Source: Crenothrix polyspora (GTDB lineage: Bacteria; Pseudomonadota; Gammaproteobacteria; Methylococcales; Methylomonadaceae). Taken from it: a stretch of 38,372 nt of DNA. This document shows, piece after piece, positions 34,633 through 38,358 of the stretch. Every line of letters starts with the position of its first letter. The stretch's first letter is position 1. Location: positions 1-38,372 of the forward strand of contig CAMDNJ010000013.1 of assembly GCA_945902915.1 (NCBI GenBank), in the 5' to 3' direction. Both the position numbers and the translations under genes were made by a program. Under the pieces are notes generated by a model, which was not told the origin of the DNA, searched no databases, and saw nothing but the letters and a program-made list of their open reading frames with translations.

Positions 34633-35904
34633 ATGAAAATCCTCATCGTTGGTAGCGGTGGTCGTGAACACGCCCTCGCTTGGAAAGCTAAACAATCTCC
34701 TAAAGTTACCCAAGTCTTTGTAGCCCCAGGCAATCCAGGCACAGCTTTAGAAGCTGGCGTTGAAAACATCGCACTGGCTGTTGATGACATTTCTGGCTTA
34801 CTGGCTTTTGCCCAACAAGAACACATCGATTTAACTATTATTGGCCCAGAAATTCCTTTGGTCTTAGGTATCGTTGATAGTTTTCAAGCCGCTGGCCTAA
34901 AATGTTTTGGCCCCAGCGCCCTCGCTGCACAACTTGAAGGCTCTAAGTCTTTTTGTAAAGATTTCATGATACGCCATCATATTCCCACAGCTGCTTATCA
35001 AAGCTTTACCGATACCGAGCTAGCTATTGCTTATATTAAACTACAAGGTGCGCCTATAGTTGTTAAAGCCGACGGCTTGGCTGCTGGTAAAGGTGTGATC
35101 GTTGCCCTAAACGAACAAGCCGCGATAGATGCGGTCATCGATATGCTCTCAGGCAATGTCTTTGGTAGTGCTGGCAATCGAGTGGTTATCGAAGAATTTT
35201 TAGTCGGCGAAGAAGCCAGCTTCATTGTTATTGCCGACGGCAAAAATGCACTGGCGATGGCCACTTCACAAGATCACAAAGCGCGTGATAATAATGATTT
35301 AGGACCCAACACTGGCGGCATGGGTGCTTATTCACCCGCTCCCGTGGTAACGCCAGAAATTCATGAGCGCGTCATGCGTGATGTCATCGCCCCTACCTTA
35401 AAAGGTATGGCTAACGATGGCCTACCTTACACTGGCTTTCTTTATGCGGGCTTAATGATTAGTCCAGATGGCACTATTAAAGTATTGGAATATAACTGCC
35501 GATTTGGCGATCCTGAAACACAGCCCATCATGATGCGGATGAAAAGTGACCTAGTCGAACTCTGTGAAGCTGCTTTGGCTGGTGAGTTAGATAAAGCCCA
35601 CAGCGAATGGGATGAGCGAGCTGCTTTAGCCGTAGTCTTGGCCGCTGGCGGCTATCCAGACAGCTATCAACAAGGTGCGATTATTTCTGGCTTACCCGAA
35701 CAAGAACAAACTGAGTGCAAAGTATTTCATGCAGGGACTAAAAAGGTCGGTGACAACATAGTGACTGCCGGAGGTCGTGTGTTATCGGCTTGCGCATTAG
35801 GATCAGATATTAAAACCGCACAAACCAATGCCTATAAACTGGCCAATAGCCTATATTGGGATGGCGTTTATTACCGTACTGACATTGGCTTTAAAGCGAT
35901 TTAA
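34633..35904 (+). CDS. purD: Phosphoribosylamine-glycine ligase
   Basis: MKILIVGSGGREHALAWK; VKADGLAAGKGV; NTGGMGAYSPAPVV; EYNCRFGDPETQ. Confidence 0.98.
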   Translation: MKILIVGSGGREHALAWKAKQSPKVTQVFVAPGNPGTALEAGVENIALAVDDISGLLAFAQQEHIDLTIIGPEIPLVLGIVDSFQAAGLKCFGPSALAAQLEGSKSFCKDFMIRHHIPTAAYQSFTDTELAIAYIKLQGAPIVVKADGLAAGKGVIVALNEQAAIDAVIDMLSGNVFGSAGNRVVIEEFLVGEEASFIVIADGKNALAMATSQDHKARDNNDLGPNTGGMGAYSPAPVVTPEIHERVMRDVIAPTLKGMANDGLPYTGFLYAGLMISPDGTIKVLEYNCRFGDPETQPIMMRMKSDLVELCEAALAGELDKAHSEWDERAALAVVLAAGGYPDSYQQGAIISGLPEQEQTECKVFHAGTKKVGDNIVTAGGRVLSACALGSDIKTAQTNAYKLANSLYWDGVYYRTDIGFKAI

Positions 35905-35944
35905 ATTTAAAAGCTAATTTTGTAGATTGATCGGGTGGCGATAA

Positions 35945-35976
35945 CGGTGATGCCTGTTATCCCTCCTGCATCACCG
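35945..35976. repeat. Hairpin downstream of purD (REP-like)
   Basis: cggtgatgc (35945-35953) / gcatcaccg (35968-35976), 9-bp perfect arms, no T-tract. Confidence 0.6.
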
Positions 35977-36567
35977 AACGTATCCAGCCTTAGGAATGAA
36001 AGGCTTTCAGCGCTCCCCGCCGACACATCTTACCTTTGGATGCTCCAGTGCTCAGCTTGCTATTTGTGGCCTTGGCTTCGACCTGTATCCATCAGATGAT
36101 TTCCAATCACCGCTAGTTAGGAAATCGCCGTAGTTGCCGTTCTTTTCTATTTCAAATGACCATTCGCTTCGCTTGACAGTCTTTTCGTTGTATCTCGATT
36201 CTTTCAGTCCTTTGCTCTGACAAGACATATTCGCTATTTCGGTTTCTGCTGATTTTTTTAAGTCTTTCACTTCGAAGATCTACCCAGATATAAAACATTG
36301 GCTGAAGTAAGTGCACAAAAATGGATTATGGGGTGTCAAATGACGTTAGGCGACAGCTTTGTCCTTTGCTAGATTTCATTGATGGATAATTGGTCACAAT
36401 GAAATAACCTTCGAACTTTTGCGAATGTAGACATGTAATTCACTCTTGATTTACACCGGCTTAATAACTAAGCAGGATACATGGATTACCTAGTAATTTT
36501 CAATCAGCGCCAACAAATCAAAATGATATCGGAAGTTTTTGCATTGATAGAGGAAAAGGTCATGCTA

Positions 36568-36654
36568 AAACTCATTTACCGATTGCGAAAAACACTAAAC
36601 CTCAAAACACCCTATGCGTTATTTATTGGCGATGACAAACGGCAGACTGCATAG
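36568..36654 (+). pseudogene. Possible C-terminal remnant of an IS30-family transposase
   Basis: KLIYRLRKTLNLKTPYALFIGDDKRQTA* resembles the IS30 ending (LN.RPRKTLG(F/Y)KTP.E.F). Confidence 0.4.
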
Positions 36655-36890
36655 TTATTAGAATTGCAATTCAGAATCGAATTCGCCTTCCATATAGATT
36701 ATTAATCCTAAAAATAACATCTCCCTACATTTAAACAAGGCTTATTTTTGATTAGGCCAAAGTCCGCAACATATCAATTAACTATATGATAATAAATAGT
36801 ATTTTTTTATATATAATTTTTAATTATTGTTTTATAGAAGCTGATTGATAAGTTTTTGTTAAAAAATAGGGTATTCGAATGAAATCTTCC

Positions 36891-36919
36891 TTGACTGGAA
36901 GCTGTTTGGAATTTATAGT
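36891..36919 (+). promoter_or_regulatory. sigma70 promoter of the dcw cluster (Pmra-like)
   Basis: TTGACT (36891-36896) - 17 bp - TATAGT (36914-36919). Confidence 0.8.
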
Positions 36920-36928
36920 GTTAAAAAA

Positions 36929-36953
36929 GTGGTAAAAAGTGGTGGTAAGTGGT
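36929..36953 (+). promoter_or_regulatory. Putative MraZ operator: three GTGGT direct repeats at 10-bp period
   Basis: GTGGT at 36929, 36939 and 36949 with 5-bp spacers, immediately downstream of the promoter and upstream of mraZ. Confidence 0.8.
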
Positions 36954-36979
36954 TATTTTTAGAGAATTTTGGGGGTTTT

Positions 36980-37447
36980 TTGTTTCGAGGCATAAGTTCG
37001 ATCAATTTAGATGATAAGGGTCGTCTTGCAATTCCAACACGTTACCGTGAAGAATTGCAAGATTGCTGTGATCGTCAAATGGTGGTAACTGTTGCAGTAA
37101 ATGAACAGTGCGTTGGTGAGCATGGTTGTTTATGGCTGTATCCGCTTCCAGAATGGGAGAAATTAGAGCTAACGATAAGTAAATTGCCCACATTGAATAA
37201 AATGGCAGGGAAATTAAGGCGTTTTGTTATAGGTAACGCATCTGAGTGTGAGATGGATGGTCAAGGACGATTATTATTGCCAGAGAAGTTAAGAAAATTT
37301 TCTCAGATGGATAAAAAAATTGTTCTAGTTGGTCAGTTGAATAAATTTGAGATTTGGAATGACGATGCTTGGATAGCTAAAGAGCAGCAATGGTTAGATG
37401 GTGGTGATAATGACGGCTTGGAAGAGTTAGGGACATTGTCATTTTAA
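36980..37447 (+). CDS. mraZ: Transcriptional regulator MraZ (TTG start proposed; called ORF start at 36929 is inside the operator)
   Basis: (L)FRGISSINLDDKGRLAIPTRYRE...; GGGGG RBS-like run at 36971-36975. Confidence 0.93.
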   Translation: MFRGISSINLDDKGRLAIPTRYREELQDCCDRQMVVTVAVNEQCVGEHGCLWLYPLPEWEKLELTISKLPTLNKMAGKLRRFVIGNASECEMDGQGRLLLPEKLRKFSQMDKKIVLVGQLNKFEIWNDDAWIAKEQQWLDGGDNDGLEELGTLSF

Positions 37448-37463
37448 TACGGGGGAATTGTTA

Positions 37464-38302
37464 GTGGAACATTTACCCGTTATGTATGCAGAAGCTTTGC
37501 AGCAATTAGCGATTAAGAGTGATGGTGTTTATCTCGACGGTACTTTCGGTCGAGGTGGTCATAGTCAGGGTATCTTAAATTTATTAGGTTCGAATGGTCA
37601 GTTGTTAGCATTTGACCGTGATGTTGATGCTATTAATGCAGATTGCGCGCAAGCCATGTGTTTAGATAAGCGATTTAAACTTAAACATAGTTGTTTTTCA
37701 CAGTTAGAAAATATAGTCAATAGTGAAGGTTTAGCAGAAAAGATAGATGGTATTTTGTTGGATCTAGGCGTCTCCTCGCCTCAGCTTGATACACCAGAAA
37801 GAGGCTTTAGCTTCTTACGGGATGGTCCTTTGGATATGCGTATGGATAGCACTACCGGAGTATCTGCTGAACAATGGCTGTCTACTGTAGATGAAAAATA
37901 TTTAGTTAAGGTTCTGTTTGAATATGGTGAAGAGAAGTTCGCAAGGCGTATAGCTCGAGCAATATTAGAGCAGCGAATGAAGTCTCCGATTACAACGACT
38001 AAACAATTAGCAGATTTAATTGAAGATGTAGTGCCACTAAGGGAAAAACATAAGCATCCTGCGACACGAACTTTTCAGGCGATACGCATAGAAATCAATA
38101 AAGAGCTGGATGAGTTGTCCACAGTGTTGGATCAGGCTATACGAGTTCTAGGTCCGGGAGGCAAATTAGTGGTGATTTCTTTCCATTCTCTGGAGGATCG
38201 AATTGTAAAGCGCTTTATTAGAAATGAATCCGGCGCAAAACATAATCCTGGGAAACTGCCTATTAAAGAAGTTGATATTCTTAAGGGTGTTTTAAAAAAG
38301 CC
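37464..38302 (+). CDS. rsmH: 16S rRNA (cytosine(1402)-N4)-methyltransferase RsmH, 3' end truncated/corrupted by contig-end fold-back
   Basis: EHLPVMYAEALQQLAIKSDGVYLDGTFGRGGHS; LDLGVSSPQLDTPERGFSF; VISFHSLEDRIVK; homology expected to continue after LKK but sequence folds back. Confidence 0.93.
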
Positions 38303-38358
38303 CTTACTTGGCTTTTTTAAAACACCCTTAAGAATATCAACTTCTTTAATAGGCAGTT
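38254..38358. repeat. Perfect 49-bp inverted repeat with 7-nt loop (fold-back)
   Basis: Arms 38254-38302 and 38310-38358, loop cttactt; followed by an 18-bp restart of the left arm (38355-38372 = 38270-38287). Confidence 0.97.

Follow-up and report, generated by a model that had tools for sequence, protein, structure and literature searches.

The mraZ locus

The window, by which we mean the whole 38,372-nucleotide stretch of DNA analysed here, belongs to the 2.71-Mb MAG of a methane-oxidising Methylococcales bacterium whose closest relatives are Methylococcales MAGs carrying the labels Methylobacter, Crenothrix or Methylococcaceae. Close to the end of the contig lie mraZ, a cell-division regulator gene, and then rsmH, the gene order of a dcw (division and cell wall) cluster, preceded by a promoter and an array of GTGG repeats (Table 1). 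The mraZ product belongs to TIGR00242 by profile search, scoring 140 bits against a cut-off of 98, and has two matches to Pfam MraZ (PF02381) and two SpoVT-AbrB-like halves with the motifs DDKGR and DGQGR. Aligned with E. coli MraZ it shows 46% identity, and the FRG N-terminus and both D-x-x-G-R motifs are common to the two proteins. The dcw genes past rsmH fall off the contig, at the end of which (38254-38358) we observed a perfect 49-nt inverted repeat with a 7-nt loop, its second arm being the reverse complement of rsmH; rsmH looks to have been cut off by a foldback assembly artefact. On the other side of mraZ, about 0.95 kb (35905-36850) separating it from the upstream ORF (34633-35904) is without a long ORF, and this stretch aligns with the nearest strain, L032, only, and not with other close relatives.

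Table 1. Features of the mraZ upstream region and of the genes that follow it, in window coordinates.
Feature	Position	Strand	Remarks
-35 element TTGACT	36891-36896	+	read directly; TTGAC conserved in close relatives
-10 element TATAGT	36914-36919	+	read directly; 17-nt spacer 36897-36913
Degenerate MraZ box 0 (GTGT)	36918-36921	+	overlaps -10, 11 bp before box 1; putative function
MraZ box 1, unit AAAGTGG-TAA	36926-36935	+	GTGGT at 36929-36933; array conserved in relatives
MraZ box 2, unit AAAGTGG-TGG	36936-36945	+	GTGGT at 36939-36943
MraZ box 3, unit TAAGTGG-TTA	36946-36955	+	GTGGT at 36949-36953; slight deviation
Shine-Dalgarno-like GGGGG, probable	36971-36975	+	4 nt before start codon; G-rich motif there in most close relatives
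mraZ coding sequence	36980-37447	+	155 aa, TTG start; TIGR00242, Pfam MraZ domain twice
rsmH (mraW)	37461-38302	+	TIGR00006 344 bits; next dcw cluster gene, truncated at contig end

Promoter and repeat array

The promoter and three GTGGT boxes that had been predicted upstream of mraZ were confirmed at their positions by direct reading, and the triplet turned out to be unique in the genome. While a TTGACT/TATAGT-like pair alone, with one mismatch allowed, is expected 1.6 times by chance, the promoter call is convincing because the -35 and -10 hexamers recur upstream of mraZ, at the identical 17-nt spacing, in 81 of the 82 close relatives. An AT-rich block preceding the -35 element (GTAAGTCATTGTCAAAAAAGAAAGA...TTTAAATGAAATC) is also conserved among relatives and partly retained in the window at 36849-36890; it is perhaps a UP element or the site of another regulator.

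The GTGGT boxes follow one another with a 10-bp period, 9 nt, given earlier as about 10 bp, separating the end of the -10 element from box 1, so that GTGG/GTG direct repeats of about 10-bp period lie between the -10 and mraZ, as expected of an MraZ operator. The pattern GTGGT-N5-GTGGT-N5-GTGGT has one match in the window and none in 100 dinucleotide shuffles, and GTGG-N6-GTGG-N6-GTGG has a single occurrence in the 2.71-Mb genome, upstream of mraZ. Similarly, AAGTGG-N4-AAGTGG is found genome-wide only in the mraZ operator, as two overlapping matches, with 0 matches for the reversed-pattern control. A genome-wide search for a wider MraZ regulon turned up neither a further exact triplet nor a further pair of AAGTGG units. 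Two triplets with one mismatch, located elsewhere (C6 and C29), were discarded as MraZ sites, since they look like chance matches; the reversed-pattern control gave three.

Conservation across relatives

The original prediction had proposed comparing the same spacer in related genomes, and we did so with 180 distinct mraZ upstream regions drawn from the genus, the order, the class and E. coli K-12, comprising 82 close sequences (MraZ identity of 75% or more) and 98 others, nearly all from class-wide gammaproteobacterial genomes. Exact GTGG cores, two or more of them spaced by 10 or 11 bp, are present in 65 of the 82 close sequences, whose counts are not independent because close relatives share ancestry, and in 85 of the 98 others, against 0.8-1.4% of dinucleotide shuffles. 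When one-mismatch boxes are allowed, the promoter and GTGG array are found to be kept in 72/82 and 90/98 loci, respectively, and the array is conserved beyond chance in orthologous loci. Box intervals in the close set measure 10 bp in 178 cases and 11 bp in 40, and the letters before the GTGG core are A-rich, with A at position -1 in 97%. This conservation, along with the layout of E. coli K-12, supports the earlier claim that a sigma-70-type promoter is followed by an MraZ operator with E. coli-like 10-bp periodicity. Judged from sequence comparison, the MraZ operator is real and conserved, and would represent an ordinary case of a known switch.

The E. coli mraZ operator (Pmra) was reportedly described by Eraso et al. 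in 2014 as TGGGN repeats. Our comparison with E. coli is based on the genome sequence and on papers quoting the E. coli work; upstream of K-12 mraZ, GTGGG stands at L113:591, 601 and 611, and the array ends 19 nt before the ATG. The two loci are alike in their 17-nt promoter spacer, in three GTGG cores at a 10-bp period 8-9 nt after the -10, and in the mraZ-rsmH order, and they differ in that E. coli has GTGGG boxes, a shorter distance to the start codon and a -10 without GTG, whereas the window has GTGGT boxes, 26 nt to the TTG and a -10 reading TATAGTG. In Burkholderia cenocepacia, the promoter fragment bound by MraZ carries four 7-nt repeats, set 3 nt apart and lying downstream of the -10 (PMC7761207). 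This promoter, PmraBc, resembles ours in its 7-nt GTG repeats, their spacers and their position downstream of the -10 and overlapping the transcription start, but has four repeats where the window has three and a degenerate one (PMC7761207). The MraZ unit of Mollicutes is (AAAGTGKN3)3, where K is G or T (Fisunov et al. 2016, quoted in PMC5282649 and PMC8475190); boxes 1 and 2 of the window match it exactly and box 3 with one mismatch, although Mollicutes are a distant phylum with a reduced dcw cluster. Mollicutes MraZ also bound a related site in which the repeat spacing differed by 1 nt (PMC5282649), and in E. coli and M. genitalium MraZ reportedly represses its own cluster.

Proposed autorepression and alternative readings

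We hold with high confidence that the region is the MraZ autorepression site of the dcw operon, a reading in which we infer MraZ binding, repression, the transcription start and the extent of the operon. We favor it because the array occurs once in the genome, before mraZ, is conserved, and matches the sites of E. coli, B. cenocepacia and Mollicutes. RNA polymerase carrying the housekeeping sigma factor would use TTGACT-N17-TATAGT and begin transcription near 36925-36929. In known members, MraZ forms an octameric ring. The protein would bind the GTGG units along one face of the DNA, as their 10-bp repeat period suggests, from the -10 to about +30 and into the first transcribed bases. Bound MraZ would presumably block open-complex formation or promoter escape, and abundant MraZ would repress mraZ and the genes downstream. 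Two features speak against this account, namely that box 3 is slightly off (TAAGTGG) and that box 0 is degenerate.

The T that follows GTGG in all three boxes, in place of the G of the TGGGN form, had been taken as a sign of altered MraZ specificity. Among the boxes of the close set, GTGG is followed by T in 56%, G in 20%, A in 17% and C in 8%, and in the other loci by G in 53%, A in 24%, T in 19% and C in 4%; T is more common in Methylococcaceae-like operators than in other loci, where G leads, which is the pattern expected if T marked an altered specificity of this lineage on an otherwise real operator. However, boxes within one operator differ at the fifth base in 45 of the 80 operators from close relatives and in 68 of the 87 from other loci, which argues that the base is not read strictly. 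Moreover, the D-x-K-G-R motifs of MraZ are conserved and their residues do not sort by the operators' fifth base, which in the published Mollicutes register, (AAAGTGKN3)3, is the first base of the spacer (PMC5282649). Altered specificity is unsupported by these data, and we consider it very improbable. Because the fifth base is variable across relatives and absent from the Mollicutes consensus, we do not treat it as defining. The comparison points to an MraZ operator that is kept across Gammaproteobacteria and whose fifth base appears to be free.

It is slightly less probable still that the GTGG array serves a different regulator, or acts as an mRNA leader element, and is not an MraZ operator. 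The AT-rich block is a second conserved element in relatives, and other factors may act there, but the array itself matches the experimentally supported MraZ boxes of E. coli, B. cenocepacia and Mollicutes. With respect to an RNA element, box 0 overlaps the -10 and would lie largely outside the RNA, and a search of the window for structured RNA found no Rfam family, which also counts against a leader element.

A probable box overlapping the -10 element

On the reading of the region as an MraZ operator, its earlier description as complete was right for the promoter and the three boxes but omitted a degenerate box 0 over the -10. Relatives have GTG or GTGG at this position, mostly 10-11 bp ahead of the next box and often in the form TATAGTGG; in the window, the -10 and box 0 at 36914-36921 read TATAGTG, in the degenerate form TATAGTGTT, at 11 bp. 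It is likely that a box 0 overlaps the -10, because the G at position 5 of the -10 is conserved (the -10 is TATAGT in 81/81 close-relative promoters, and G occupies position 5 in 74/94 other loci), because the GTG is phased 10-11 bp before the next box, and because box 0 is a full GTGG in 44 of 81 close relatives. From this pattern we infer selection for box 0. Within the source genome, TTGAC-N18-TATANT has eight matches, three of them with G at position 5, including mraZ; the pattern is no more frequent than its reversed control and too sparse to serve as a baseline.

The number of units also varies. L003/L032, with 99.3% DNA identity over 3.3 kb, carries one additional 10-bp unit, giving four boxes versus three at window positions 36920-36955; both genomes are MAGs, and the difference may stem from an assembly error on one side. 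We tentatively propose, as a possibility that we rate somewhat below an even chance, that in many Gammaproteobacteria the dcw -10 is part of the operator, with TATAGT(G)(G) kept over TATAAT since its GTG is an in-phase MraZ box 0, and that the number of 10-bp units is an evolving dial of dcw repression, set to three here and to four in the 99.3%-identical strain. The overlap between the -10 and box 0 would offer a simple testable account of MraZ repression.

The translation start of mraZ

The ORF list opens mraZ at the GTG of box 1, 36929, and illustrates how an automated caller can misplace this start because the GTG of the operator core doubles as a start codon. The suspicion that this call is wrong and that TTG 36980 is right was borne out: the TTG directly precedes FRG, the N-terminus common to E. 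coli MraZ, mraZ starts with TTG in 77 of 82 close (Methylococcaceae-like) relatives, and the leader is broken in L033. Both the window and L004-L007 keep the 17-codon leader from GTG 36929 open; in L004-L007, codon changes relative to the window are nonsynonymous in 7/10 cases in the leader versus 16/150 in the body. Conservation of the extension as protein, which would have spoken against the original prediction, was not seen: in L033, with a 98.7%-identical MraZ, the leader is interrupted by two stops and a frameshift, in L003 a stop lies 19 codons upstream of the mraZ start, and most relatives have one within 17 codons. Despite the open frame in the window and L004-L007, the chance that MraZ has a real 17-residue N-terminal extension from GTG 36929 is negligible, as these frame breaks lead us to reject it, the GTG is present because it is a box core, and, placed on the expected transcription start or only a few bases from it, it would leave no room for a preceding ribosome site. 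The sequence evidence thus gives good support to a predicted translation start at TTG 36980, with the 17 codons from GTG 36929 belonging to the operator and 5' leader, and corrects one gene start of a type that automated callers can miss. The conserved TTG start of mraZ may also hold MraZ synthesis low.
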